A stretch of DNA of 64,000 nucleotides from Niabella yanshanensis. GTDB lineage: Bacteria > Bacteroidota > Bacteroidia > Chitinophagales > Chitinophagaceae. A program made the translations under genes and the position numbers. Positions within the stretch are counted from its first letter, which is position 1. Each line of letters begins with the position of its first letter. Below, piece after piece: positions 9,341-57,093 of this stretch. The stretch is from assembly GCF_034424215.1 (NCBI RefSeq), contig NZ_CP139960.1:310001-374000 (forward strand). The letters are read 5' to 3'. The notes below the pieces were generated by a model. The model ran no database searches. It saw only the letters and a list, made by a program, of their open reading frames with translations, and had not been told where the DNA came from.

Positions 9341-9507
9341 AAAGAGGTGTATTTAAATAAAGTTAACCTGGTTTTTGTACAATCAGCTTGATAGGGCAGC
9401 GTATCCAATTTCAACCAGGCGGCAATTTATCTGGCTAATGGTGCTGCCGGTTTAAGCCTCCCGCTTTCACCGGCAACTGATTAAATACATTTTCTATTCA
9501 AAATAAT
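9341..9507 (+). other. Intergenic spacer with a hairpin
   Basis: The 167 bases between GH95 and the oxidoreductase contain a 7-bp perfect hairpin, TGCCGGT (9445-9451) with ACCGGCA (9469-9475), and no T run behind it. It is longer than the other gaps in this part of the locus and could mark attenuation or an internal promoter for the sugar-oxidation cassette; the sequence does not decide. Confidence 0.3.
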
Positions 9508-10509
9508 ATGCAAAGAAAAAATGGTAAACTGGGTATCGCTCTGGTCGGTCTTGGCGGATATGCAACAGGCCAGTTGGCCCCTGCATTACTGCATACAAAT
9601 GATTGCTATCTGGCGGCCATTGTCACCGGCACGCCCTCGAAAATCCCGGTATGGCAGGATCAGTATCATATCTCCGATAAAAATATTTATGACTATTCGA
9701 ACTTCGATCGTATTAAAGACAACAAGGATGTAGATATTGTATATGTTGTTTTGCCGAATAATATGCATGCCGAATTTACCATCCGGGCCGCTCAGGCGGG
9801 TAAGCATGTCATTTGTGAAAAGCCAATGGCCATTACAGTGTCGGATTGCGACAGGATGATTGAAGCCTGTAAAAAAGCTAATGTTTCATTAAGTATTGGA
9901 TATCGACTGCATTTTGAACCATATAATAAGGAAATGATGCGATGCGGGAGGGAAAAGTTATACGGCGCAATTCAGCAACTATCCGGTGGATTTGGGTTCA
10001 AGGCTGGTCCCAATCAATGGCGTCTTACTCAGAAATATGCGGGTGGCGGACCATTGATGGACCTGGGGATTTATGTGGTACAGGCCCTGTGTTACACCGC
10101 TGGTATGCTCCCCGTATCGGTTGCGGCGCAGGAGGGCACAAAAACAGATCCGGAACGGTTTAAAGAGGTAGAGCAATCCCTGACCTGGCAATTTGAATTT
10201 CCTGGCGGGTTGATCGGCAAAGGGGAAAGTAGTTATGAGGATCATTTCAATTATATCCGCGCAGAAGCCGACAAAGGTGTTTTTGAATTGACTTCCGCCT
10301 ACAACTACAACGGGCAAAGGGGAAATACCCCCGCCGGCAATATGAGCTTTGCTCAGGTAAACCAGCAGATCCTGCAAATGGACGCTTTCGCCCGGTCTGT
10401 AAAAAACAGACAGGCTTCGATAGTGCCGGGCGGAATGGGACGCAGGGATGTAATTTACCTGCAGGCTATTTATGAAGCAATGCGATCAGGAAAAAAAATA
10501 AGAATCTGA
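9508..10509 (+). CDS. Gfo/Idh/MocA-family sugar dehydrogenase
   Basis: 333 residues, no signal peptide, cytoplasmic. The N-terminal Rossmann fold has the nucleotide motif LVGLGGYATGQLAPALL (residues about 11-27) and the family EKP motif (VICEKPMA); the C-terminal alpha/beta domain includes GGGPLMDLGIYVVQAL, where the family's catalytic Lys/Asp/His region lies. These enzymes oxidise or reduce sugars with NAD(P). As first gene of a cassette with a pentonate dehydratase and a 2-keto-3-deoxy-pentonate dehydratase, it most likely oxidises D-xylose or L-arabinose to the lactone. Glucose-fructose-oxidoreductase-like activity on another aldose is possible. It ends 59 bases before the dehydratase gene. 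Confidence 0.85.
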   Translation: MQRKNGKLGIALVGLGGYATGQLAPALLHTNDCYLAAIVTGTPSKIPVWQDQYHISDKNIYDYSNFDRIKDNKDVDIVYVVLPNNMHAEFTIRAAQAGKHVICEKPMAITVSDCDRMIEACKKANVSLSIGYRLHFEPYNKEMMRCGREKLYGAIQQLSGGFGFKAGPNQWRLTQKYAGGGPLMDLGIYVVQALCYTAGMLPVSVAAQEGTKTDPERFKEVEQSLTWQFEFPGGLIGKGESSYEDHFNYIRAEADKGVFELTSAYNYNGQRGNTPAGNMSFAQVNQQILQMDAFARSVKNRQASIVPGGMGRRDVIYLQAIYEAMRSGKKIRI

Positions 10510-10568
10510 TTATCTTTAGTGGGCAGATGTTGCTTGTAATGGATCTATTTGTATATAAGGGTTGAAAT

Positions 10569-12287
10569 ATGAAAAAGAAATTACGCAGTCACGACTGGTT
10601 TGGACGAAAAGACAAAGACGGTATTATTTATCGCAGCTGGATGAAAAATCAGGGCATGCCCACTGATATGTTCGACGGCCGGCCTGTAATTGGTATTTGT
10701 AATACGTTTAGCGAACTGACACCCTGTAATGCTCATTTCCGTGATCATGCGGAGGCTGTTAAAAAAGGAGTACTCGAAGCTGGTGGTTTCCCTGTGGAAT
10801 TTCCTGTTATGAGTTTGGGTGAAACCCTGCTCAAGCCTACTGCCATGCTGTTCCGTAATCTGGCCAGTATGGACGCGGAAGAAAGCATCCGTGGTAATCC
10901 TATAGATGGAGTAGTGTTGTTGACGGGCTGCGATAAAACAACACCGTCTACAGTTATGGGCGCTGCCAGTGTAGGACTGCCCACGATTGTGGTGCCGGGT
11001 GGCCCGATGCTGAATGGACGGTATAAAGGTCAAACGATCGGTAGTGGCACCCATGTATGGAAGTTTGACGAAGACATGAAAACCGGTAAGATGACGCAGG
11101 AGGACTGCGAGTATGCCGAAAGTTGTATGAGCAGGAGCATAGGGCATTGTATGACCATGGGCACTGCTTCAACTATGGCGGTGATGGTAGAAGCGCTCGG
11201 ACTTACTTTAAGCGGTGCAGCTGCTATACCGGCAGCGGACAGCAGAAAGAAAATAATGGCTCAGCTAAGCGGAAGAAGAATTGTAGAAATGGTGAGGGAT
11301 GATCTTACCATTGATAAAATACTAACCCGGGAAGCTTTTGAAAATGCTATTAAGGTCAATGCCGCCGTTGGAGGATCGTCTAACTTCCTGATACATCTGG
11401 TTGCTATAGCTGGGCGTATAGGCGTACCACTGAACCTGGATGACTTTGATACATTAGGTAGTAAAATTCCGCTATTATTAAATTTGATGCCTTCGGGTAC
11501 TTACCTGATGGAAGACTTTTACTATGCCGGCGGGTTACCTGTTATTTTAAATGAATTAAGAGATCTGCTTCATCAAAATGTAGTGACCGTTACCGGCAAA
11601 AATCATCATGAGAATATCCGCGGTGCTACAGAAAATTATAATACTAATGTTATAGCCAGTTACGGGCAGCCGCTGATACATGAAGCCGGCTGCGTAATCG
11701 TAAAAGGTAACCTGGCAGAAAATGGTGCGGTGATCAAACCCTCAGCTGCTACTCCCGCCCTGATGCAACATACCGGCCGTGCTGTAGTATTTGAAAGCAT
11801 AGAAGATTATCATGCCCGTATAGATGACCCGGATCTGGATATTGATGAAACCTGTGTAATGGTACTAAAATATGTGGGACCTGTTGGGTACCCTGGTATG
11901 CCGGAGGTAGGAAATATGGCCTTGCCTAAAAAGATCCTGCAAAAAGGTGTAAGGGATATGATACGTATCAGCGATGGTCGTATGAGTGGTACAGCTTATG
12001 GTACGGCGGTCTTACATGTTTCTCCCGAAAGTGCAATTGGCGGTACGCTGGCGCTGGTACAGGATGGCGATCAGATAGAGCTAAACGTAGCCGAAAGAAA
12101 GCTGCACCTGCATGTTAGTGATGACGAACTGGCTAAGCGCAAAGAAGCGTGGATAAAACCGGTTCCGGCCGCTGACAGGGGGTATGTAAGCCTGTATGTA
12201 AATCATGTAATGGGCGCGGATAAAGGGGCGGACTTAGATTTCTTACTGGGTAGCTCGGGCAGTGCAGTAACAAGAGATTCTCATTGA
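10569..12287 (+). CDS. IlvD/Edd-family pentonate dehydratase (xylonate/arabinonate)
   Basis: 572 residues, cytoplasmic. Three cysteines expected to bind the Fe-S cluster are present: Cys53 (SELTPCNAHF), Cys121 (LTGCDKTTPST) and Cys194 (SIGHCMTMGTAST). The 68- and 73-residue spacings are those I recall for sugar-acid dehydratases of the L-arabinonate/D-xylonate type. The C-terminal motif ISDGRMSGTAYGTAVLH also fits. The enzyme removes water from D-xylonate or L-arabinonate to give a 2-keto-3-deoxy-pentonate. The IlvD branch acting on dihydroxy-isovalerate is less likely because of the neighbours: a sugar dehydrogenase before it and an FAH-family dehydratase after it. Length is normal. Confidence 0.86.
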   Translation: MKKKLRSHDWFGRKDKDGIIYRSWMKNQGMPTDMFDGRPVIGICNTFSELTPCNAHFRDHAEAVKKGVLEAGGFPVEFPVMSLGETLLKPTAMLFRNLASMDAEESIRGNPIDGVVLLTGCDKTTPSTVMGAASVGLPTIVVPGGPMLNGRYKGQTIGSGTHVWKFDEDMKTGKMTQEDCEYAESCMSRSIGHCMTMGTASTMAVMVEALGLTLSGAAAIPAADSRKKIMAQLSGRRIVEMVRDDLTIDKILTREAFENAIKVNAAVGGSSNFLIHLVAIAGRIGVPLNLDDFDTLGSKIPLLLNLMPSGTYLMEDFYYAGGLPVILNELRDLLHQNVVTVTGKNHHENIRGATENYNTNVIASYGQPLIHEAGCVIVKGNLAENGAVIKPSAATPALMQHTGRAVVFESIEDYHARIDDPDLDIDETCVMVLKYVGPVGYPGMPEVGNMALPKKILQKGVRDMIRISDGRMSGTAYGTAVLHVSPESAIGGTLALVQDGDQIELNVAERKLHLHVSDDELAKRKEAWIKPVPAADRGYVSLYVNHVMGADKGADLDFLLGSSGSAVTRDSH

Positions 12288-12319
12288 TCTGTTCATCATC
12301 TAAAACAATTTATCATAAA

Positions 12320-13150
12320 ATGAAGCTATACAGAACCAGCAGAGGTCCGGTTGTCGAAAAAAACAATGCTTTTTATTTACTGGCAGAAGATTGGTTATCT
12401 CTTGTTAACAACGACTCGGTGATAGCGCACATTAATACACTTATTGCTTCAGTACCCGGCTCCGGTTCAGCATTGCTAGCCGATGTACTCGCGCCGATAA
12501 CGCCTAAGCAGGAGTTGTGGGCCTGCGGCGTTACGTATCTGCGAAGTAAGGTGGGCAGACAGGAGGAAAGTAAGGACAGCGGCGGCAGCGATTTTTATGC
12601 AAAGGTTTACGAGGCAGAGCGTCCTGAAGTGTTTTTTAAAGCCACTTATCACCGTATTGCCGGTGATCAGGGAAAAGTACGGATCCGCAAAGATTCCGAA
12701 TGGGACGTACCCGAACCGGAACTGACTTTGGTCGTTGCTTCTTCAGGAAAAATCATAGGTTACACTATCGGCAATGATATGAGTAGCCGGAGCATCGAAG
12801 GTGAAAATCCATTGTACCTGCCACAGGCAAAAACATATGATGGCTGCGCGGCTTTAGGACCATGTATATACCTTACCAATGAAATACTACCTGCTGATCT
12901 TACGATCCGGCTGTGCATTATACGGGATAACGCTGTTGTTTTTGACGAAATGATTGCCATCGGCCAAATGAAACGTAAGATAGATGAATTGGTGTCGTTT
13001 GTTTACAAAGAATGTTCCTTTCCCGCCGGTTGCCTCATTATGACGGGAACAGGTATTGTACCACCTAACAGCTTTACTTTACAGGAGGGTGATGAAATTA
13101 GGATATCCATCAGAGAGATCGGTACATTAACGAATTGGGTATCCGGATGA
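12320..13150 (+). CDS. FAH-family 2-keto-3-deoxy-pentonate dehydratase (KdaD-like)
   Basis: 276 residues from ATG 12320; the frame is open further upstream to a TTG overlapping the previous stop, but the ATG after CATAAA gives a normal N-terminus (MKLYRTSRGPV). The C-terminal fumarylacetoacetase fold is clear: metal-binding Glu residues in WDVPEPELTLVV, the GYTIGNDMSSRSIEGENPLY motif and LPQAKTYDGCAALGP. This pattern is closest to archaeal-type 2-keto-3-deoxy-D-arabinonate dehydratase (KdaD) among FAH proteins I know. The expected reaction gives 2-oxoglutarate semialdehyde, completing a Weimberg-like route apart from the final dehydrogenase, which is not in the window. Hydrolase activity on a diketo-acid is an alternative. 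Confidence 0.84.
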   Translation: MKLYRTSRGPVVEKNNAFYLLAEDWLSLVNNDSVIAHINTLIASVPGSGSALLADVLAPITPKQELWACGVTYLRSKVGRQEESKDSGGSDFYAKVYEAERPEVFFKATYHRIAGDQGKVRIRKDSEWDVPEPELTLVVASSGKIIGYTIGNDMSSRSIEGENPLYLPQAKTYDGCAALGPCIYLTNEILPADLTIRLCIIRDNAVVFDEMIAIGQMKRKIDELVSFVYKECSFPAGCLIMTGTGIVPPNSFTLQEGDEIRISIREIGTLTNWVSG

Positions 13151-13165
13151 TATAAACTAAATAAT

Positions 13166-14332
13166 ATGAGTCGAAACAGATATCCTTATTTTTTTTTGAT
13201 GGTTGTTGTGCTGCTGATTGCTTACCGTAATCCTGTCAGCGGGCAACAAAACGCTGTTAACCGAATGCACCTGAAGGATGCATACAAAAATGCGTTTCTG
13301 ATCGGTGTAGCGGTCAATGATGGTATCGTAGCAGGCGCTGATAAAGCGCTGCAGGATATAACTGTCCGGCATTTCAATAGTATTACCTTAGAAAATTCGA
13401 TGAAAGCTGCTTTGGTCAATCCGGCACCCGGCGTTTTTAGTTTCAAAGCAGCTGATGCATTTGTTGATTTTGGTAAAAAGCATCAGATGTTTATTGTAGG
13501 CCATACGCTGGTATGGCATAACCAATGTCCCGACTGGTTTTTTACGAACGCAGCCGGAAAACCAAATACAAAAACCGAACAACTTCAACGCCTGCGGGAT
13601 CATATAAAAACAGTGGCAGGGCGCTATGCCGGTAAGGTGCACGCATGGGACGTGGTGAACGAAGTAATCGGAGAAGATGGAAAATATCGCGCCACCAATT
13701 GGGTAAACGCTGTAGGTAACGGTGATACATTGGTAAAATACGCTTTCAAATATGCCAGCGAGTTTGCACCCGGCACCGAGCTGTATTATAACGACTTTAA
13801 TGCCTGGCGTCCCGCCAAGAGAGACGGTATCATACGGATGGTTAAAATGCTGCAGCAGGAAGGCATACGTATTGATGGAGTAGGGATGCAGTCGCATTGG
13901 GGTTTAAATTACCCCAGGAATCAATATATCGAAGCAGCCATTGATAGCTATGCCGCTACGGGTATAAAGGTGATGATAACAGAGCTGGATATTGATGTGC
14001 TTCCCCTCACCCAAGAGGGACAGATCATTGGCCAGGGAATGGCCGATAAACAATTTCAACTGGAAGAATTTGAAGCCTTTCTCGATCCTTACCCGAAAGC
14101 GCTACCTGATAGCGTTCAGCAATTATTAACAGCCCGGTATAAGGAGGTATTTGAAATTTTCCACAGGAAAAGAGATAAGATTTCGCGTGTTACGCTTTGG
14201 GGCATACATGATGCCATGAGCTGGAAAAATGATTACCCCATACCCGGCCGTACCAACTACCCTTTGTTGTGGAACAGGGATAAACAGGCTAAGCCAGCGA
14301 TTGATGCTATTTTAAAAGTCACGGGGCAGTAG
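13166..14332 (+). CDS. GH10 endo-1,4-beta-xylanase
   Basis: 388 residues with a signal peptide cleaved near PVSGQ. It is a single GH10 barrel: substrate motifs LENSMK and VGHTLVWHNQCPDWFF, acid/base Glu166 in HAWDVVNEV and nucleophile Glu273 in VMITELDIDVLP. It cleaves the xylan backbone internally, leaving decorated oligosaccharides. It starts 15 bases after the FAH-family gene and ends 22 bases before the permease, so an exported xylanase sits inside a set of cytoplasmic sugar-acid genes and must be co-expressed with them. No binding module is attached, unlike the GH10 at 15806. Confidence 0.94.
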   Translation: MSRNRYPYFFLMVVVLLIAYRNPVSGQQNAVNRMHLKDAYKNAFLIGVAVNDGIVAGADKALQDITVRHFNSITLENSMKAALVNPAPGVFSFKAADAFVDFGKKHQMFIVGHTLVWHNQCPDWFFTNAAGKPNTKTEQLQRLRDHIKTVAGRYAGKVHAWDVVNEVIGEDGKYRATNWVNAVGNGDTLVKYAFKYASEFAPGTELYYNDFNAWRPAKRDGIIRMVKMLQQEGIRIDGVGMQSHWGLNYPRNQYIEAAIDSYAATGIKVMITELDIDVLPLTQEGQIIGQGMADKQFQLEEFEAFLDPYPKALPDSVQQLLTARYKEVFEIFHRKRDKISRVTLWGIHDAMSWKNDYPIPGRTNYPLLWNRDKQAKPAIDAILKVTGQ

Positions 14333-14354
14333 AGATAATTACGCCACTAACGAT

Positions 14355-15563
14355 TTGTACATGGAAATACTGGTCATCATTTTAGCTATAGCGCTGCAGG
14401 TTTTCTTAACTGTAAAAAAGGTCAGCCCTTTTATTTCGCTTTTAGCAGTTGCTGTTTTCGCCGGCTTTCTGTTAGGCATGCCGGCGCCACAGGTGCTGAA
14501 ATCTATAGAGACCGGCGTAGGAAGTACACTCGGTGGATTAGCGCTTATTCTTTGCCTGGGAGCTGTATTGGGCAAAATACTGGAGGCAAGCGGCGCTGCT
14601 GAAAAGATTGCGGTCACATTAATACAACAATTCGGAGAAAAGAACATTCAATGGGCAGTATTGTTAACGGGTTTTTTGATCGGAATACCGCTCTACTATA
14701 ATGCCGGGTTTGTGATTTTGGTTCCACTGATCTTCATGCTGACAAAAAAAACAGGATTACCTCTTTTGTATATCGCCATACCCATGGCAGCTTCGCTCAG
14801 CACCACTCATTGCTTTTTACCTCCTCATCCCGGCCCCGTGGTATTAGTGAATGCGTTCAATGCCAATATCGGGCAGGTATTGGTTTACGGCGTCGTCATA
14901 GCCATACCGGCCGTTATCATAGCAGGCCCATTGCTTGGAAAAGCCATTCAGCGTTTCAGTCCTACCGAAGTTAAAGCTCAGGAAGCTGTGGTGGCAACGT
15001 CACAGAGCGTATTGCCGGGAGTTTTCAGCAGCTTTTTTATAGCGCTGCTACCGGTTTTATTAATTACGGTCTCCCTGGTGGCGCAAACTTTTTTACCGGA
15101 CAGTATTTTAAAGCAGGCATTGCTTTTTGTTGGCGACTCTACCATTGCGTTGTTTATTTCTGTTTTAATGGCCATGTACTTTCTGGGAATTCGCAAAAAT
15201 CATTCGATGCCTTCCATTATGAAATGGCTTCAGGAGGGTATTACAGGTATTGCCATGATCATGCTGATTATTACGGCGGGCGGTGTTTTTAAACAGGTAT
15301 TGCAGGATAGTGGCACCGGGGCTTTTATAGCTTCCTTTAGCAGCAAATGGCAGCTGCCCCCTTTAATATTCGGATGGTTGGTGACGGCTTTATTGCGGGT
15401 AACTATTGGATCTGCAACGGTAGCGGCGATCACGGCGGCAGGTATTGTAGCACCCCTGGCAGGACCGGGAATGACATCTCCGGAACTAATGGTGCTGGCT
15501 GTGGGAAGCGGCAGCGTATTTGGCTCGCATATCAACGATTCGGGCTTCTGGATGTTCAAATAG
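14355..15563 (+). CDS. GntP-family gluconate/pentonate:H+ symporter, ends early at an in-frame amber codon
   Basis: 402 residues as read, highly hydrophobic with about 12 membrane helices. GntP motifs are present: ILCLGAVLGKILEASGAAEKIA, the STTHCFLPPHPGPV loop and FGSHINDSGFWMFK near the end. GntP proteins import gluconate and related sugar acids. Beside a pentonate dehydratase, uptake of xylonate or arabinonate is the natural inference. Odd: the TAG at 15561-15563 falls where relatives have Glu in FKEYFGL, and the same frame continues for 36 more codons (15564-15674) with a normal GntP C-terminus. The gene is therefore a nonsense allele lacking its last helix, or contains a sequencing error. 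Confidence 0.85.
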   Translation: MYMEILVIILAIALQVFLTVKKVSPFISLLAVAVFAGFLLGMPAPQVLKSIETGVGSTLGGLALILCLGAVLGKILEASGAAEKIAVTLIQQFGEKNIQWAVLLTGFLIGIPLYYNAGFVILVPLIFMLTKKTGLPLLYIAIPMAASLSTTHCFLPPHPGPVVLVNAFNANIGQVLVYGVVIAIPAVIIAGPLLGKAIQRFSPTEVKAQEAVVATSQSVLPGVFSSFFIALLPVLLITVSLVAQTFLPDSILKQALLFVGDSTIALFISVLMAMYFLGIRKNHSMPSIMKWLQEGITGIAMIMLIITAGGVFKQVLQDSGTGAFIASFSSKWQLPPLIFGWLVTALLRVTIGSATVAAITAAGIVAPLAGPGMTSPELMVLAVGSGSVFGSHINDSGFWMFK

Positions 15564-15674
15564 TTCTTTGGACTATCCTTAAAACAAACATTTTTTTCCT
15601 GGACCGTAATGGAAACATCGATTTCCCTGCTTGGTCTTGTTGGTGTACTCTTGCTTCACCTTTTTATCTCCTGA
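15561..15674 (+). pseudogene. Detached C-terminal tail of the GntP permease after amber codon
   Basis: In the same frame as the permease, after TAG 15561-15563, the sequence reads FFGLSLKQTFFSWTVMETSI followed by SLLGLVGVLLLHLFIS and TGA at 15672-15674. This is the expected last segment and membrane helix of a GntP protein; with it the length would be 439 residues, normal for the family. GAG (Glu) to TAG is a single-base change, so this is probably a recent nonsense mutation. Readthrough or suppression cannot be judged from sequence. Confidence 0.8.
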
Positions 15675-15805: not shown

Positions 15806-17188
15806 ATGAGTCTAAAATTACATCCGCTTTTAGCCGGTTTACGTGGCCGGGTGGCGAAGCCATGTTTAGCCGCCATGTTGCTGCTCACCCATCCGGTAAT
15901 GGCCCAAAACTATCCACCATCCTGTGTAGTAACGATGCCCTACAGTAATGCTTATTTTCAGGCAGGTACAGATGTATTGATAAAAGTGTATGCAACGGAT
16001 TTAGGAAAAACAGCTCATAACGGAACGGTACAGTTTGTAGCATTTTATAATGGTGATCAATTATTGGGCAAGGTCAACCGGCATGAAGATTATACCTATA
16101 CTTTTTTATGGGCAAAAGTACCTGCAGGCAATTACACTATAAAAGCCCGGGCCACTAACAGCAACGGTGTATCATTTACTTCGGCAGGGGTAGTAATAAC
16201 CGTCGGCACTAATAAGGTTGTACCTGCCGGAATGAGCGCCGGCAGGGGTAAATACCTGGCAAATATTTTTCAAAGTAAGGAGGAATCCGGATATGAAAAA
16301 TATTGGAATGGTGTTACCGCTGAAAACGCCTGTAAATGGGGCACCATAGAACCGGTTCGGGGCAAATATAAATGGGAGGACGCCGACAGGGCTTACGGGT
16401 ATGCGGTAGCACGCAATATGGTATTTCGATACCATGCCGGTGTTTGGGCCAGTCAGTATCCCCAGTGGCTGCTTACCCTTTCGAAAGAAGAAGCCCGTGC
16501 GGAAATAGTTAAATACCTGAAGGCCATCGCTGAAAGATTTCCCCTGGCCGATCAGATTGACCTGTTGAATGAGCAGCTGTTTCAACACCAGAAAGACAAC
16601 CAGAAATTTCGGGAATTACTGGGAGGACCCGGCACTACTGAAACGGATTTCGCGTGGCAGATATGGCTATTTGAAGAGGGTAGGAAGGTATTTAAAAATA
16701 CCAAACTGGTGCTCAATGATTATGGACTGGAAGGCGATCATAAGGCGATTACTGCGCAATTGGAATTGTTCAAAGCTTTGCGTGATAGGGGCCTGGTAGA
16801 CGGCTTTGGAACACAGGCTCATGCCTTCAATGTAGATAAGCCGGCAGCTGATACTATTAAAGCGTCTCTCAATATGATGGCTAAAGCAGGGCTACCGATC
16901 TACGTAACAGAACTCGATATGAATGGAGGTATCAGGGGGCGGCAGGCCAATGATTCCCTGCAGCTCATCAGCTATAAAAAAGTGATACCCGTCTTTTGGG
17001 AACATCCCGCTGTAGCCGGCATTACCCTATGGGGGTACGTCGCAGGCACTACCTGGATGTCCGGCACAGGAATTATGAGTAAAGACGGTGTGCCTAATCC
17101 TTCTTTGCTGTGGCTGCAAAACTACATCAAGGCCGCGGAAGCAGTGGGCTACCCATTAAGCACTATTATAAACGGAAGACCCCGATAA
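15806..17188 (+). CDS. GH10 endoxylanase with N-terminal Ig-like domain
   Basis: 460 residues with a signal peptide ending at VMAQ. Residues about 36-134 form an Ig-like beta domain (YPPSCVVTMPYSNAYFQAG to VVITVG) of the kind found on bacterial glycosidases. Residues about 142-445 are a GH10 barrel with acid/base Glu256 (DLLNEQLF) and nucleophile Glu369 (IYVTELDMNGG). The usual WHxQ-type substrate loop is replaced by FRYHAGVWASQYPQW, which places it in a GH10 subgroup distinct from the enzyme at 13166, so cleavage specificity on decorated xylan may differ. It follows the interrupted permease after 131 bases and precedes a 318-base regulatory gap. Confidence 0.9.
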   Translation: MSLKLHPLLAGLRGRVAKPCLAAMLLLTHPVMAQNYPPSCVVTMPYSNAYFQAGTDVLIKVYATDLGKTAHNGTVQFVAFYNGDQLLGKVNRHEDYTYTFLWAKVPAGNYTIKARATNSNGVSFTSAGVVITVGTNKVVPAGMSAGRGKYLANIFQSKEESGYEKYWNGVTAENACKWGTIEPVRGKYKWEDADRAYGYAVARNMVFRYHAGVWASQYPQWLLTLSKEEARAEIVKYLKAIAERFPLADQIDLLNEQLFQHQKDNQKFRELLGGPGTTETDFAWQIWLFEEGRKVFKNTKLVLNDYGLEGDHKAITAQLELFKALRDRGLVDGFGTQAHAFNVDKPAADTIKASLNMMAKAGLPIYVTELDMNGGIRGRQANDSLQLISYKKVIPVFWEHPAVAGITLWGYVAGTTWMSGTGIMSKDGVPNPSLLWLQNYIKAAEAVGYPLSTIINGRPR

Positions 17189-42519: not shown

Positions 42520-43560
42520 ATGGCCAAACGTCAACCTTTAGAGATAAGCGAAGAGGAGTTATTGGAATTAGAAACGATATCCCGCAGCAGTAAAGCGGAG
42601 AAGCGTATGGTCGAAAGATCAAAGATTATCCTGCTATGGCAATCCGGGAGTAGTTTTGCACAAACACAGGCAATTCTTGGAGTAAGTCAAATGGTTGTAA
42701 ATAAGTGGCGCAAGCGATTTATTAAATACCGGATAGAGGGTCTGCGAGATGCTCCGCGGAGTGGTAAGCCCCCGGTGTTTTCAGCAGCGACAAAGGCAAC
42801 AGTAATTAAACTGGCCACTCGTAAACCTAAAGACGGATATACATCATGGAGTCAGCGTCGCATAGCAAAGGAAGTGGGTATGAGCCAGGGCAAAGTGCAG
42901 CAAATATTAAAACAGGCCGATTTAAAACCCCACAAGGTGGACTATTGGTGTGGGAAGAGTACGGATGTGGAATTTGAGAACAAAATGTTGAACATTGTTG
43001 GCCTGTACATGAATCCGCCTGAAAATGCCCTTGTATTGAGTGTTGATGAGAAAACACAAATACAAGCTTTGGATCGCACTCAGCCCTTGCTGCCACTAAA
43101 AACAGGACGGCCTAAAAGATTGACTTCAACTTACAAACGTAATGGAACAGTTGCTCTATTAGCTGCCTTGTCGGTACATAAAGGAGAAGTTACGGCCAGA
43201 ACAGTAGATAAAAATAACGCACAGAATTTCCTTTTGTTTTTGAAGGATTTGTACCGCAAGTACCCAGGTAAGCACCTTCATGTAATTGTAGACAACCTCA
43301 CGGTTCATAAGCACAAAATGGTTGTGCAATGGGTGACCTCCAAGAGGAGGATGACCCTACACTATACACCAACCTATTCATCCTGGTTGAATCAAATCGA
43401 AATATGGTTCAATATTCTGACAAAAGATGTATTAAAGGGAGGTGTTTGGAAATCAAAAAAACAGCTTGTTGATCAGCTAATGGAATACGTGAAAACTTAT
43501 AATGAGCAGAGAGCAAAACCTTTTAAATGGACTTATACTGGACAACCCCTCGCTATTTAA
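42520..43560 (+). CDS. IS630-family transposase
   Basis: 346 residues. An N-terminal pair of helix-turn-helix regions (about 20-75 and 85-135: AQTQAILGVSQMVVNKWRKR and YTSWSQRRIAKEVGMSQGK) is followed by the DDE domain with Asp176 (LSVDEKTQIQAL), Asp258 (VIVDNLTVHK) and Glu294 (SWLNQIEIWF), spacing of the second and third residues as in IS630. No frameshift or stop interrupts it, so it should be functional. It moves the element by cut-and-paste into TA dinucleotides. Confidence 0.95.
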   Translation: MAKRQPLEISEEELLELETISRSSKAEKRMVERSKIILLWQSGSSFAQTQAILGVSQMVVNKWRKRFIKYRIEGLRDAPRSGKPPVFSAATKATVIKLATRKPKDGYTSWSQRRIAKEVGMSQGKVQQILKQADLKPHKVDYWCGKSTDVEFENKMLNIVGLYMNPPENALVLSVDEKTQIQALDRTQPLLPLKTGRPKRLTSTYKRNGTVALLAALSVHKGEVTARTVDKNNAQNFLLFLKDLYRKYPGKHLHVIVDNLTVHKHKMVVQWVTSKRRMTLHYTPTYSSWLNQIEIWFNILTKDVLKGGVWKSKKQLVDQLMEYVKTYNEQRAKPFKWTYTGQPLAI

Positions 43561-50704: not shown

Positions 50705-50963
50705 ATTTGCCTGATAGAAGCGATCGATACTTTGTTAAAACGGGTTTTGAAGAAGTATCAATAGTGGATATCACTGACCATTCAGAGGTGAAGTTCAAAC
50801 TTTATTCTATTAACTACCACTCTGCCGAATGTTTCCCGGCCTCCATGTTTTTTCTTTACTGTAGTTAATGATGTTTACTGCGTTCATATCTGTTACTTTT
50901 GTATTATCTTCTTTGAAGGTAGATGAATAAAAATAATAGTTCAAGTTGTGGGGTGTCCTAAAT

Positions 50964-53900
50964 ATGAAGTCAATACTGCTTATTAAATCTTTGCTGATTT
51001 CCGCATTAAGCCTGGTATTATGTCATCCCGGTTTTGCGCAGCAATTTGTTTTTTCTCCTTTTGAACGCAGCGCTGATTTAAATGAAGATCAGATCAGGTT
51101 AGTGAACCAGATACCGGACGGGAGGTTGATCATCTTGACGGAAAGTTCCACGAACTTATACAATGTAGGATCTGTAAAAAATATCCCACTCGATACCGTC
51201 AATTTTCTGCCGGTTAATGATTATACCAATAACCACTTTTGTTATGTCGATGATAAATGGGTCTGGATAAAAAATCAGCGGAGTTTAAGTATACTAAATA
51301 TTGTATCTGAGAAATATGAGGATAGTCCTGGTAAACTCTTACAAGAGTTGGGCTTTTCTGAAAAGCCAAAAAATCTGTTCCTGGATGAACAAAAGAACAT
51401 CTGGTTGCTATCGGTAAACGATGAACTGTATTGCTATGATCGCGGCCTTAAGACAGTAAGTCTGGCTTTGCCTGGCGTTAAAGTTCGTCGTAATAATGAC
51501 CTGGTGAATAATGTAACCAGCTGGGGTGAGCAGGTTTTTCTCATTTACAGGTCGGGTCTGGTGAAGTGCTATGCACGGACTGATTTTAAGGAACTGTACT
51601 CCATCAATATTAATGAGCAAAGAAAAATTGCATCTTGGTTGAGTTTTGTGGTTGCATCCGGAAAGTTTTTGTATTTAACAACAGATGACTCTGGAGGCGG
51701 TTGCAGCCTGATAAAACTTGATGTCCAAACCCGGCGGCAGACTGCTTTGATCAATAACCATAAGCAAAGGGTGAATGGCCTTACGTTTGATAAACGTGGC
51801 GGGCTATGGGTTGCCGGTACAGAAGGTTATTGGTATTTTGAAGCCAGCGCTGTTTCGGGTCAATTCTTTTCAGGAATTCTACTTAATGACGGGCAGCAGG
51901 TGCATAGCGGCGTCTCGAATGTTTTTTGCGACAACCAGGAGGGTACGTGGATGAGCACCAACAAGGGACTATATTATTATAACCCACATAGGTTTAGCTT
52001 CTCCGGCTTTAATACATCTTTTTTTCAGTTTAGAGGAACGGACGATCTGAAAGTGTTTTGTTTTGAAGAACAGGCAGACAGGTTGCTGATAGGTACGCTG
52101 AACGGCATTTACACAAAAGATGTTGATAAGAACAATGAGTCGAAAATCAGGTTGTTGGTTCCCGGTTTAAGATGTCACGCATTATTCAGGAGTAAATCGG
52201 GCATTGTTTGGATTGGTGCCGAAGATGGTTTGTATGCCATGCGGCCCAATGGTTCTGTAACCAAAGTGCTGGATGCATATGCCTATTCAATTATGGAGCC
52301 GGTGCCGGGAACGCTGGTAATCGGGACCTCTAATCAGGGGTTATTACAATTTGAAGAGAGCTCGCAACGTGTAACAACGCTGTTTGCTCATAGTTTTTTA
52401 CCTGATATAAGGCAGGTTTTAAGTTGGAACGGGTATTGGGTGGGCTTTTGTAATAACGGGTTGTTTTTTATTGATCCATCAAAAAAGGTATTAAAATATG
52501 CGAATGAAGATCGCAGTCGTTTAGCCGCAGATCTGCCGCCAGATGTGCGTATTTTGGTTTGCTTATTCGCAGATAAAGAGGGCCTTTTGTGGCTGGGCAC
52601 TTATGGCGGATTGTATGCCTGGGATCCCGTGAGCGCACGGATGTATCGATTTGGCACACCCGAAGGACTGGTGAACAACAGCATTAAGGCCGTCATTCAG
52701 GATGCGGATCATTCGATATGGGTCACCACATCAAAAGGGATCAGTCGTATTGAGAAGAAACGCCTGGGGGCCGACTATAAATTTACGATCCATAATTACA
52801 ACGAAAATGATGGAGTCAGCAAACATGCTTTTGTTGGAAGAGCCAGTTTTCTGTCGAAGACTAACCAGCTGTATTTTGGTAATTTGGACGGGTTGAATTA
52901 TTTAAAGCATTCCATTGAGCCGGACACTCCGAAAATTCCGGTAGTTATCTTTAATTTTAAACTCTTCGGCAGACCTGTTGAAGAGAATATGTTGTATGAT
53001 GGAAAGGTTTTATTGAACACCTCCTTGTCGCATACCGGTCAGATCACTTTAAATCATCATCAGAATTTTATCAATATCCAGTTTTCGGGATTAAATTATA
53101 TAAATCCCGAAAAGACATACTTTAGATACCGGTTGTCGGGTGTTGATAAGCAATGGAGGGAGGAGTTGCCCGGCAAGCATTTTGGAGAAGCCGTTTATAC
53201 GAACCTCGCGCCGGGCGAATACAAATTCAGTGTGATGGCAAGCTTCGACGGCCATCGTTGGCCGGTAACTGCTAAAGAGCTGATTATTTCGATTCAGCCA
53301 CCGGTATGGGCAACGATTTATGCCAAAATATTGTACACACTTTTACTGATCGGTATATTATACTGGCTGGTTAAAAGATACAATACAAGGCAGAAAAAGA
53401 TCAGGTCGCAGCAGCAGGCCGAAGCTATAGAAAGGGAAAAGTCACGATTTTTAACCAATATCAGCCACGATCTGAGAACACCGTTAACATTAATTATAAC
53501 TCCTTTACGGTCTTTGATCCGGAGCATATCCGATACTGAAATAAAGGAAAATTTGAAGCGTATTGAAAGCAACGCCGACCTGTTATTGGACACCGTCAAT
53601 CAGTTGCTGGAATTTAAGAAAATTGACGAATCGGGTGAGCTGCTCCATGCAAGCTATGTTGAGAATCTGTCATTCTTATCTGGGGTCGGACTAAATTATG
53701 CCCAGCTTGCAGCGGAGAAGCAAATTGATTTCAAAGTAAATGTAGCTGACACAGCAGGTGTTTGGCTTGATAAAAAAAAGGTGATTCGTATGGTGATGAA
53801 CCTGCTATCTAATGCCTTCAAATTTACTCCTGATGGAGGAAGTATTGTATTGGATGCATTTGTGAGGGGAACGGATGAACTGATAATAACTGTAGCTGAC

Positions 53901-54887
53901 ACCGGTATTGGCATTCCCGCATCCGAAAAACAGGCAATATTTGACAGGTTTTACAAAGCCCGTAACCAGGACGAAGCGAATACCGGAAGCGGTATAGGAC
54001 TTTACCTCGTTAAAAAATATGCAGAATTGCATGATGGATATGTAGTCATTGATGACGATGAGCAGTATTCAACTGTTTTCAAGGTTGCTTTAAATGTAGG
54101 ACGTCTGGAGCAAAAAGCAAATGAGCCTGCTTCGGATGTTAAAAAATCCATCCTTATTGTTGAAGACAACAACTCTTTTTTGACCTTTTTAGAGACAGAA
54201 TTGGCAGCCTATTATACTGTTTTTACTGCCAATAATGGTAAAAAGGCGTTGGAGCTTGCAATAGATAAACAGCCCGATCTCATCATTACTGATATGATGA
54301 TGCCTGAAATGAACGGTATCGACTTGTGTTTGTCTATAAGGAAAAATATTAATATATCTCATACGCCTATTATTATGCTTACTGCCCGTGCTTCTGACGA
54401 GGCGCAATATGAAGGATATGAAGCGGGGGCAGATGCTTATCTGGTAAAACCTTTTGATATGGAGATGCTCAAATTACGTATTCGTAAGTTGATGCAGATG
54501 TTTTTAGACAGGCAAAAGCTGTTCAGCACTGAAAAAGATGTAAAATCTGACACAATCACGACCAATGCCCTTGACAGAGACCTGCTGGATCGTGCGTTAA
54601 ATTGTGTAAATGGCAACCTGGCCAATACAGAATATACCGTCGAGAAATTTAGTGCTGATATGCATATGGATCGTACCGGCCTTTACAGAAAACTGATGGC
54701 TTTAACCGGGCAGTCTCCAAGAGACTTTATAAGAACCATTCGCCTCAATAAGGCTGCCGAATTATTAAGCCATCCCAATGCTATAGTAAGCCAGGTGGCA
54801 GAGGAAGTTGGCTTTAGTAGTGTCTCTTATTTTTCTAAAAGCTTCCAGGAGAAATTTGGGGTTTCTCCCAGCCAATATGGTCAATAG
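50964..54887 (+). CDS. Hybrid two-component system sensor/regulator (HTCS)
   Basis: 1307 residues from ATG 50964, at a signal peptide cut near GFAQ. The periplasmic part (about 60-740) is built of Reg_prop propeller repeats (WIGAEDGLYAM, WLGTYGGLYAW), then Y_Y_Y (about 742-780). A membrane helix (about 785-805, YTLLLIGILYWLV) leads to HisKA with His835 (FLTNISHDLRTPL), HATPase (NLLSNAFKFTPDGG, DTGIGIP, GSGIGLYLVKKYAEL), a receiver with Asp1110 (LIITDMMMPEMNG) and an AraC-type HTH (about 1210-1307). This whole chain is the classical polysaccharide-locus regulator: it binds an oligosaccharide in the periplasm and activates transcription. Location right after the xylan enzymes makes xylo-oligosaccharide the inferred ligand. 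Confidence 0.95.
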   Translation: MKSILLIKSLLISALSLVLCHPGFAQQFVFSPFERSADLNEDQIRLVNQIPDGRLIILTESSTNLYNVGSVKNIPLDTVNFLPVNDYTNNHFCYVDDKWVWIKNQRSLSILNIVSEKYEDSPGKLLQELGFSEKPKNLFLDEQKNIWLLSVNDELYCYDRGLKTVSLALPGVKVRRNNDLVNNVTSWGEQVFLIYRSGLVKCYARTDFKELYSININEQRKIASWLSFVVASGKFLYLTTDDSGGGCSLIKLDVQTRRQTALINNHKQRVNGLTFDKRGGLWVAGTEGYWYFEASAVSGQFFSGILLNDGQQVHSGVSNVFCDNQEGTWMSTNKGLYYYNPHRFSFSGFNTSFFQFRGTDDLKVFCFEEQADRLLIGTLNGIYTKDVDKNNESKIRLLVPGLRCHALFRSKSGIVWIGAEDGLYAMRPNGSVTKVLDAYAYSIMEPVPGTLVIGTSNQGLLQFEESSQRVTTLFAHSFLPDIRQVLSWNGYWVGFCNNGLFFIDPSKKVLKYANEDRSRLAADLPPDVRILVCLFADKEGLLWLGTYGGLYAWDPVSARMYRFGTPEGLVNNSIKAVIQDADHSIWVTTSKGISRIEKKRLGADYKFTIHNYNENDGVSKHAFVGRASFLSKTNQLYFGNLDGLNYLKHSIEPDTPKIPVVIFNFKLFGRPVEENMLYDGKVLLNTSLSHTGQITLNHHQNFINIQFSGLNYINPEKTYFRYRLSGVDKQWREELPGKHFGEAVYTNLAPGEYKFSVMASFDGHRWPVTAKELIISIQPPVWATIYAKILYTLLLIGILYWLVKRYNTRQKKIRSQQQAEAIEREKSRFLTNISHDLRTPLTLIITPLRSLIRSISDTEIKENLKRIESNADLLLDTVNQLLEFKKIDESGELLHASYVENLSFLSGVGLNYAQLAAEKQIDFKVNVADTAGVWLDKKKVIRMVMNLLSNAFKFTPDGGSIVLDAFVRGTDELIITVADTGIGIPASEKQAIFDRFYKARNQDEANTGSGIGLYLVKKYAELHDGYVVIDDDEQYSTVFKVALNVGRLEQKANEPASDVKKSILIVEDNNSFLTFLETELAAYYTVFTANNGKKALELAIDKQPDLIITDMMMPEMNGIDLCLSIRKNINISHTPIIMLTARASDEAQYEGYEAGADAYLVKPFDMEMLKLRIRKLMQMFLDRQKLFSTEKDVKSDTITTNALDRDLLDRALNCVNGNLANTEYTVEKFSADMHMDRTGLYRKLMALTGQSPRDFIRTIRLNKAAELLSHPNAIVSQVAEEVGFSSVSYFSKSFQEKFGVSPSQYGQ

Positions 54888-54962
54888 CCTGATTTTTAGG
54901 TTGTTTAAGTAGAAAATCAACATGAGTTACAATTGTTTCAACATGGGTTTTTCAACTTTTTG

Positions 54963-56003
54963 ATGTGGTCCTGCACTTTTGTTGACAATAAACGATTCGA
55001 CGTGTCAAACAAAAGCCATATCACTCAACAACCCCAAGTTGCAGTTTTTGATCTTCTCAATCTGGTACTTAGTGAACGTAGTGTTGGGAGGGACTGCAAA
55101 TTTCAACCAGCCAAACCCGGGCGGCGTAAAAGAAGTCGCAGAGCCATTTGGTCAGTTGGCGGTCAACCCGCAGCTCTTGCTTCTGCCGGTGCTCCGTTAG
55201 GATCTCCATCAGCCAGAATTGCTGTATTGGTTGAAAGCCTTTCAGATCATCATACAACTAAAATTATTTCGGGTATTGAAGTGGCGGCGGAAAAAACGGG
55301 GTATGAAATTGCGATCTTAAATGTATTAGGCAAGCGGCAACCACTGATCGGCCTGGATAGTTTTGAGGGATTTATTGCCTGCTGTTCAGACGAGACCGCT
55401 GTTGATCCCGATTTCTTCGAAAAGCTCGGCAAACCTGTTATCGTGGTGGGTAATGTAGAAAATGTCAGGGGGGCTCATTGTATAAAAACCAACTATCAAA
55501 AAGGAGCCCGGCTGGCTGTCAATCATTTAATCGACCAGGGTTGTCAGAATATTTTAATGATCGCACCCGCGGGAAACAGGGCAGTCGACCTGGACAAATA
55601 CCTGGGTTATCGCGATGCATTGAAAGATTTGGGGAAGAACTGGATGGAGCCGCTAAGTGTTAGTGAGGCCAGTATAGAAGCAGGAATGAATATGGCAGCC
55701 CGGATGTTTGAAAAAGGCGAACTGCCAGATGGCGTATTCATTACTAACGATTGGATAGCAGCAGGCTTTGTAAAATATTTGAAAAAAAAGAAGGACTGCC
55801 TTGAAGCAAAAACAGTTGTAGTAGGTTTTGGTAATGAGTCATTATGCGAAATCATCGAGCCTGGTTGGTCTTCAATAGATTTTCGCAAAGAGGTGGCCGG
55901 CTCAACGGCGCTACATGTTTTATTTGAGCACTTAGGTGACCTACAGCGGTCAGCCGGAGACGGGCTTACAGTAATTGAACCGGTTTTGGCAATAAGGGTT
56001 TGA
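54963..56003 (+). CDS. LacI-type ligand-binding domain protein lacking a recognisable HTH
   Basis: 346 residues from the only early in-frame ATG (54963; a TTG at 54933 is also possible). From about residue 85 (SARIAVLVESLSDHHTTKII) to the end the protein is a periplasmic-binding-protein-like effector domain as in LacI/PurR regulators (HCIKTNYQKGARLAVNHLID, DGVFITNDWIAAGFVKY, VVVGFGNESLCEIIEP, VAGSTALHVLF). The expected N-terminal HTH (xTIxDIAxxxxVSxxTVSRxL) is absent; instead there are about 80 residues of Arg- and Ala-rich sequence with no domain. Frame shifts in this stretch do not reveal an HTH. It may be decapitated, or a sugar sensor working without DNA binding. It is 75 bases after the hybrid regulator. 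Confidence 0.65.
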   Translation: MWSCTFVDNKRFDVSNKSHITQQPQVAVFDLLNLVLSERSVGRDCKFQPAKPGRRKRSRRAIWSVGGQPAALASAGAPLGSPSARIAVLVESLSDHHTTKIISGIEVAAEKTGYEIAILNVLGKRQPLIGLDSFEGFIACCSDETAVDPDFFEKLGKPVIVVGNVENVRGAHCIKTNYQKGARLAVNHLIDQGCQNILMIAPAGNRAVDLDKYLGYRDALKDLGKNWMEPLSVSEASIEAGMNMAARMFEKGELPDGVFITNDWIAAGFVKYLKKKKDCLEAKTVVVGFGNESLCEIIEPGWSSIDFRKEVAGSTALHVLFEHLGDLQRSAGDGLTVIEPVLAIRV

Positions 56004-56073
56004 AAAATAAGATCATCTTTAATTAGCCAAACTGCTTCCGCCTGTTGTGGCGATGCAATTTGGAAAAGGGTCC

Positions 56074-57093
56074 TTATCGTATAGAGGATTCCCTTATAAC
56101 TAACCGGGCGGGTAAAACAGTTTTAGATATTTTCGGCATTTCAGGGTTTTCGATCTGCAGCAATATATTTTGAGCGGCTACGCGGCCGATCTCATATCCC
56201 GAGTAGCTGATACTGGAGAGATTGGGATCGATAAGGGTAGCAACGGGCTCGTCATTAAAACCTACAACCGCTATGTCTTTGGGAATATTGAGTCCTCCTT
56301 TTTTCAGACCGGCTATGCAGCCGGCTGCACAATGATCATTTTCAAAAAACAAACCATCCGGGGGCTTGTTCATTTTTAAGATATGATCAGCTACATGTTT
56401 ACCAGATTCGATGCTGCCCAGATCTTCGAAAACTAAAAGTTCTTCTTTTAGTCTTTTATTGCTTTCCAACAGTGCTTTTTTATAACCGGCGTATTTGTCT
56501 GCACAAATACCATGGCTGATACCGGTAGTTACATGAGCGATCTTCTTACAGCCAGCTTCGATCAAATGCTTAGTGGCAATATATGCAGCCTGGGCATGAT
56601 CTATTACAATGACAGAACTATCTGTAATGTCAGGTACGCTATCAAAATATATTAAAGGTATTTTCTTTTTGGTAAACGGATCAAGATGTTCGGGGCTTTT
56701 AGTTTGGTCGGACAAAGACACGAGCAATCCATCAACCCGGTTGTCCATTAACATTTTTAAGGCCGAAATTTCTTTATCAATTTGTCCGTAGGTTTGACCG
56801 ATAATAATATTGTATCCTTTGATACTTAGCATATCTTCTAAACCTGATATAGCGGAGGATACAAAATGATTGGTGAGTCGTGGTATTATAATCCCAATCA
56901 GGTAGCTTCTTTTATTCCTCAGGCTGCGGGCAAACGGGTTACTCTGGTATCCCATTTTTTGCGCCATCTGGTGAACTTTATTACGTGTTTTGAGCTTAAC
57001 TTTTGGGTCGTTCTTTAAAGCACGGCTAATGGTTGAAGACGCCAGATCCAATTCCCTTGCGATATCGTATATAGTTACATCTTTTTCTTCCAT
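56074..57093 (-). CDS. LacI-family transcriptional regulator
   Basis: 339 residues. N-terminal LacI HTH (residues about 6-52: VTIYDIARELDLASSTISRA with the hinge-helix region NPFARSLRNKRS), followed by the two-lobed effector-binding domain (LIGIIIPRLTNHFVSSAISG, DGLLVSLSDQT, DHAQAAYIATKHLIEAGCKK, DGLFFENDHCAAGCIAGLKK, VVGFNDEPVATLIDPNLSSI). Length is normal. It faces the hybrid regulator and ends 70 bases past the preceding gene's stop on the opposite strand. A perfect 9-bp inverted repeat lies about 92 bases before its start, possibly for autoregulation, and the ATCGAT sites in the enzyme locus are its most plausible targets. The inducing sugar is unknown. Confidence 0.92.
   Translation of the reverse strand: MEEKDVTIYDIARELDLASSTISRALKNDPKVKLKTRNKVHQMAQKMGYQSNPFARSLRNKRSYLIGIIIPRLTNHFVSSAISGLEDMLSIKGYNIIIGQTYGQIDKEISALKMLMDNRVDGLLVSLSDQTKSPEHLDPFTKKKIPLIYFDSVPDITDSSVIVIDHAQAAYIATKHLIEAGCKKIAHVTTGISHGICADKYAGYKKALLESNKRLKEELLVFEDLGSIESGKHVADHILKMNKPPDGLFFENDHCAAGCIAGLKKGGLNIPKDIAVVGFNDEPVATLIDPNLSSISYSGYEIGRVAAQNILLQIENPEMPKISKTVLPARLVIRESSIR

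Follow-up and report, generated by a model that had tools for sequence, protein, structure and literature searches.

We found that five adjoining genes in the window, a stretch of 64,000 nucleotides covering positions 310001–374000 of the single 5.54 Mb contig that makes up the Niabella yanshanensis genome, probably make up a partly degraded version of a module, conserved in Bacteroidota, for the oxidative use of D-xylose through D-xylonate, the steps of which would be split by the inner membrane. Judging from the sequence, three envelope parts of this copy are lost or damaged, namely the leader of the dehydrogenase, the lactonase and the end of the GntP permease, and the two inner dehydratases (IlvD and KdaD) look intact. 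An initial annotation had described the genes as a pentose oxidation cassette. As an account of their origin, a self-contained cytosolic cassette had to be given up, since the relatives have a dehydrogenase with a Tat leader, a lipoprotein-like lactonase and a permease, and it is this outer half that is damaged or missing in the window.

The five genes are closely spaced on the forward strand, and open reading frames and profile matches confirm the families and the order named in the initial annotation. They encode a Gfo/Idh/MocA aldose dehydrogenase of the GFOR/AAOR type without a leader (9508–10509, 333 aa; PF01408), an IlvD/EDD sugar-acid dehydratase (10569–12287, 572 aa), an FAH-fold protein of the KdaD type (12320–13150, 276 aa), a GH10 xylanase (13166–14332; PF00331, 308 bits) and a GntP-family permease (14361–15563, with a start at 14355 or 14361). 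The open reading frame of the FAH protein spans 12284–13150, and its likely start is the ATG at 12320, where the relatives start. The next gene on the same strand encodes a second GH10 protein with a bacterial Ig domain (15806–17188; PF00331, 185 bits; PF17957). As annotated, the cassette lies beside sugar-releasing enzymes: the setting is a xylan/arabinoxylan/arabinan locus that also contains GH8, GH43, GH97, GH95, GH115 and GH127-type genes.

The IlvD/EDD protein is, on the evidence of its sequence, a sugar-acid dehydratase. It scored 900 bits with the NCBIfam model PRK06131 (cut-off 539) and 445 bits with the ilvD model (cut-off 618), and the nearest solved structure is PuDHT (8ej0, 865 bits over 568 residues). 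The three correctly spaced cysteines noticed initially are the [2Fe-2S] ligands of the family, C53, C121 and C194, whose spacings of 68 and 73 are identical to those of C59, C127 and C200 in the L-arabinonate dehydratase of R. leguminosarum. Moreover, the final residue His572 aligns with the final residue of 8ej0, and in the sugar-acid dehydratase subfamily a C-terminal histidine is described as extending into the active site of the neighbouring subunit (PMC9314677, PMC11316719). PuDHT is reported to be active on gluconate and xylonate, to accept xylonate alone among the four D-pentonates assayed and to be inactive on the branched substrate DHIV (PMC9314677); those activities were measured in vitro, and that of the window enzyme is predicted. 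A role in branched-chain synthesis, a doubt raised in the initial annotation, is rejected at the family level, as a separate IlvD is encoded in the ilv operon (genome 4369795–4371477) and PuDHT does not act on DHIV. The L-arabinonate dehydratase model PRK13016 gave 846 bits, just below its curated NCBIfam cut-off of 882, so the substrate could be another acid, such as L-arabinonate or gluconate.

The FAH protein is probably a 2-keto-3-deoxy-D-pentonate dehydratase, as the label "KdaD-like" had proposed. It matched KdaD of Sulfolobus solfataricus (2q18/3bqb) with 187 bits, 89 of 203 aligned residues (44%) being identical, and belongs to the same fold family. All five active-site residues described for that enzyme (PMC9795676) are retained, comprising three acidic metal ligands and a Glu-Lys dyad (E114, E143, E145, D164 and K182 in Sulfolobus; the paper prints Glu164, and the aligned Sulfolobus sequence has Asp). 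The partner dehydratase differs, being of the IlvD type in the window and of the enolase type in Sulfolobus. According to the sources consulted, the FAH-type enzymes characterised so far take the D-isomer of the intermediate and the DapA-type enzymes the L-isomer (PMC7374468, PMC9795676), which makes L-arabinose less likely as the main substrate and, together with the xylanase setting, favours D-xylonate. Thus the best reading of the IlvD and KdaD pair is that it would convert D-xylonate to 2-oxoglutarate semialdehyde. Of the Weimberg-like route from xylose or arabinose that had been suggested, the lower part is upheld for D-xylose, and arabinose becomes the less likely sugar on the isomer evidence.

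The best structure matches of the dehydrogenase were AAOR (5a02, 262 bits) and GFOR (1ofg, 239 bits), which places it in one sequence family with the enzymes of Caulobacter crescentus (AAOR; PMC4628093) and Zymomonas (GFOR). It differs from both in being linked to a whole pathway locus and in lacking a leader, and its activity is putative. Among the 30 best-scoring matches in the family, own protein included, an RRxF[IL] leader is present in 28, a 29th has RRDFV, and the window dehydrogenase is the sole member without an RR leader. By eye, the relatives' proteins begin with a twin-arginine motif that is often accompanied by a lipobox-like cysteine. Upstream of the window gene, on the forward strand at 9411–9481, stretches reading RRQFI and GLSLPL, the latter hydrophobic, occur in two frames and are followed by a stop. 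A frameshift-tolerant comparison with the leaders of the six nearest orthologues gave a score of 40, which four of 1000 dinucleotide shuffles (one of them with 54) and two of 1000 random pieces of the window equalled or exceeded. In a less strict test with four leaders, one mononucleotide shuffle and two random pieces, out of 1000 each, scored as high, and the two-frame score with the same leaders was equalled by four of 1000 in either control. These results are suggestive of a frameshifted remnant of a Tat leader. Without the leader, the window dehydrogenase would remain in the cytosol.

Outside the leader, the dehydrogenase has three unusual changes at 138 near-invariant positions (18 others have a mean of 1.56 and a highest count of 8), and IlvD, KdaD and the part of GntP before its stop have none. 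A general decay of the cassette was therefore rejected. So little decay beyond the lost leader fits a working cytosolic enzyme equally well.

The permease ends short of 15674, the end first annotated: its frame is closed by an in-frame TAG at 15561–15563, which had been read through. PF02447 matched the shortened open reading frame with 453 bits over profile positions 1–405 of 440; when read across the TAG, it matched with 490 bits over positions 1–439 in the same frame, up to 15662, with this one TAG inside. The frame continued behind the stop (15564–15674, forward strand) ends at a TGA. Copies of GntP without the stop are present in relatives, and the genome itself has a second, uninterrupted GntP gene elsewhere, adjoining a gluconate-kinase-like gene (by eye). 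The TAG may be an artefact of sequencing, or ribosomes may read through it.

A tblastn search of the window (E 1e-4), with 11 lactonases and 7 aldehyde dehydrogenases (ALDHs) of relatives as queries, detected neither kind of enzyme as a gene or as a remnant, in agreement with the initial annotation; the cluster thus departs from a Weimberg cluster with its own lactonase. Elsewhere, the genome encodes two SMP-30 proteins whose profile matches are nearly full-length. One of them (118352–119242), without an evident leader, adjoins an enolase-type galactonate dehydratase; the region 116317–122041 is another oxidative sugar cluster, with this SMP-30 protein, two SDR proteins and the galactonate dehydratase (319 bits, cut-off 311).

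For the semialdehyde dehydrogenase, the genome search that the initial annotation had proposed gave a candidate at 704850–706334, about 380 kb from the cassette, which retains the GQFC cysteine and scored below every NCBIfam cut-off shown. It lies in a hydroxyproline cluster with a 4-hydroxyproline epimerase (594 bits, cut-off 376) and D-amino-acid-dehydrogenase-like and DapA-like genes, both below their own cut-offs. The hydroxyproline pathway is reported to proceed via 2-oxoglutarate semialdehyde as well (PMC4113996). We compared every open reading frame of 98 stretches around KdaD genes with five full-length ALDHs of the genome. Of the 35 ALDH-type frames, 33 were closest to the hydroxyproline-cluster enzyme, with 142 bits or more, and the best second match was 97.8 bits; the other two (L071 and L132) were closest to another of the five. 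The best argument for a role of this ALDH is that the same kind of enzyme stands beside two pathways that share 2-oxoglutarate semialdehyde.

We then turned to the conservation of these genes among 394 genomes of the family Chitinophagaceae, own genome included. KdaD is present in 133 of them (E 1e-30) and in 59 at 60% identity or more; 62 KdaD rows entered the linkage count, three of which are partial genes. The dehydrogenase is found at 60% or more in 32 genomes (one by a partial match), and 29 of these 32 also have KdaD at that level, in 17 cases within 20 kb (Fisher p 3e-24 for the co-occurrence, with genomes counted as independent despite their kinship). From 80 KdaD loci fetched, 25 with 63–70% identity (L055–L079) were compared, several of the stretches ending at contig ends. 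IlvD occurs in 16 of these loci, GntP in 16, SMP-30 in 14 (in nine between IlvD and KdaD), the hydroxyproline-type ALDH in eight and a mandelate-racemase-type dehydratase in five, and one dehydratase or the other is present in 19. KdaD itself was listed as an open reading frame in 23 of the 25, and was probably dropped in L058 and L077 by the overlap rule of the caller. By eye, the relatives' SMP-30 proteins have lipoprotein-like or signal-like starts, and one that was checked against Pfam matched SGL with 108 bits. No dehydrogenase lies within the available stretch in 21 of the 25 loci, so the core may there serve imported pentonate only.

Eighteen further stretches were examined, 14 picked for nearby dehydrogenase and KdaD matches and four for KdaD, so that the dehydrogenase in 14 of 18 is not a frequency. 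Three loci (L065, L205 and L206) repeat the window order with an extra SMP-30 gene (dehydrogenase, IlvD, SMP-30, KdaD, GH10 and GntP), and thus also have the GH10 gene between KdaD and GntP; three others (L209, L211 and L213) add xylulokinase-like, AraC, SusC, SusD and ALDH genes. Taken together, the relatives' conserved module consists, by sequence, of a dehydrogenase with a Tat leader, a lipoprotein-like SMP-30 protein, GntP, IlvD and KdaD, often with a hydroxyproline-type ALDH, a composition that suggests periplasmic oxidation, import and then the cytosolic Weimberg steps.

The mandelate-racemase-type dehydratase is found near KdaD in L068, L070, L073, L075 and L078, with an RraA-like gene in four of the five; in L068, L073 and L075 no IlvD lies within the stretch, and these two genes stand in its place. 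The dehydratase of L068 and L075 has a Tat-like start, and a non-cytosolic dehydratase would be odd. Among 55 more distant KdaD loci (L080–L134, 50–58%), an ALDH at 44% or more occurs in 17, and none has an IlvD that reaches 60%. IlvD-like genes adjoin KdaD in six of them (L084, L106, L111, L119, L128 and L133), and the two tested, both from Acidobacteria, are YjhG/YagF D-xylonate dehydratases over the cut-off. Within the genus, an intact KdaD of the window kind was found in none of the 16 other members. One of these (G002, locus L054) has a KdaD gene of 47–58% identity that stops interrupt, with DapA-like and alcohol-dehydrogenase-like genes nearby, and in nine a sugar-acid dehydratase of 62–65% is encoded, KdaD being absent for about 1.5 kb around it.

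In the intact module, the Tat-exported GFOR/AAOR-like dehydrogenase would oxidise xylose to xylonolactone in the periplasm, and the lipoprotein-like or secreted SMP-30 lactonase would open the lactone. GntP would bring xylonate into the cytosol, where IlvD would form 2-keto-3-deoxy-D-xylonate and KdaD would convert it to 2-oxoglutarate semialdehyde; a divergent aldehyde dehydrogenase would yield 2-oxoglutarate, a step that in the source genome may fall to the ALDH of the hydroxyproline cluster. The families, the key residues, the linkage of the genes, the missing leader and the stop are seen in the sequence itself. We infer the substrate, the cellular locations, the direction of the steps and the importance of the damaged parts from this arrangement. 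Export and lipidation are predicted from motifs, and the retention of NADP would follow from relatives in the literature.

The main competitor of this split module is a working route held entirely in the cytosol, in which the leaderless dehydrogenase acts inside, the lactone opens spontaneously or through the other SMP-30 protein, and the hydroxyproline-cluster ALDH finishes the pathway. We consider it possible, at roughly one chance in three. The dehydrogenase, IlvD and KdaD have intact frames with at most three unusual changes each at near-invariant positions, an SMP-30 protein without evident leader is at hand, and the genome has a candidate for the last enzyme; against this, nearly all of the best dehydrogenase matches carry the RRxF[IL] leader, GntP is cut and the genome offers an alternative route. 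In fact, the proposed search for xylA and xylB returned two copies of xylA over the cut-off and araA. The two xylose isomerase genes (263956–265284 and 727899–729227) are alike at their starts, and by eye one adjoins a xylulokinase-like gene and the other split transketolase-like genes. The isomerase route is therefore encoded too, the kinase being assigned by eye, and xylose need not pass through the window cassette.

That the IlvD and KdaD pair serves some other sugar acid, such as D-gluconate, D-galactonate or L-arabinonate, with the xylan setting incidental, appears unlikely. It would agree with the promiscuity of IlvD-type dehydratases (PuDHT is reported with 48 U/mg on gluconate and 20 U/mg on xylonate; PMC9314677), with the score near the cut-off of the L-arabinonate model and with the GntP family. 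However, C6 acids would not yield 2-oxoglutarate semialdehyde, and for an L-pentonate the second dehydratase should be of the DapA type (PMC7374468, PMC9795676). Among the 25 compared KdaD loci, seven have xylulokinase-like genes and four a GH10 gene that reaches 60% identity; these, and the YjhG/YagF partners in two Acidobacteria loci, also point to xylose. Least probable is that the FAH protein acts as a diketo-acid hydrolase as in L-rhamnose or L-fucose routes. It belongs to the same superfamily and matched the rhamnonate-hydrolase model weakly (28 bits), but another protein of the genome (1586740–1587594) fits that model far better (358 bits, under the cut-off of 500), and the similarity to Sulfolobus KdaD and the five kept catalytic residues argue for a dehydratase.

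Most descriptions of oxidative xylose use concern Proteobacteria and archaea. No Weimberg or xylonate cluster like that of the window was found for Bacteroidetes, Bacteroidota or Chitinophaga in titles and the beginnings of abstracts in the open-access literature. The split module most resembles the Weimberg pathway of Pseudomonas taiwanensis VLB120, which, as far as the source shows, also combines periplasmic sugar oxidation, a lactonase, a gluconate-type xylonate transporter, cytosolic dehydratases and KGSADH (PMC11252243). There the oxidase is the PQQ-dependent Gcd, unlike the Gfo/Idh/MocA enzyme of the window and its Tat-leader relatives; the FAH enzyme of the Bacteroidota resembles KdaD of Sulfolobus, and the dehydratase resembles PuDHT. 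For P. putida isolates, too, periplasmic oxidation of xylose is attributed to Gcd, and an XylA homologue from a "Bacteroidetes bacterium" is reported to have been tried in yeast as a Weimberg enzyme (PMC11775059; further sources consulted were PMC6336799 and PMC10107873).

More tentatively, with a little less than even confidence, we propose that the Bacteroidota have a split Weimberg pathway of their own. On the outer side of the inner membrane, a Tat-exported, cofactor-retaining Gfo/Idh/MocA dismutase would take the place of the PQQ enzyme of pseudomonads and, needing no free cofactor, form xylonolactone and a reduced sugar from xylose. The acid would be supplied to the cytosol by a lipoprotein lactonase together with GntP; the semialdehyde dehydrogenase would either serve hydroxyproline catabolism as well or derive from it; and the window would be losing the outer half and keeping the inner. 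If so, such modules in xylan loci would let part of the plant pentose carbon reach 2-oxoglutarate while bypassing the pentose phosphate pathway, a PQQ-free periplasmic xylose oxidase would be on offer, and the degraded window copy would be a natural test of which parts are dispensable.

A Bacteroidetes-type promoter pattern matched the window twice (3.1 matches expected), neither match lying in the cassette or directly ahead of it. A hybrid two-component regulator is encoded at window positions 50946–54887, followed at 54933–57093 by a periplasmic-binding/LacI-like protein and an opposite-strand LacI regulator, and these regulators possibly control the xylan locus. A DDE_3-type transposase gene (42520–43560) lies between two GH43-CBM6 genes of the same locus.
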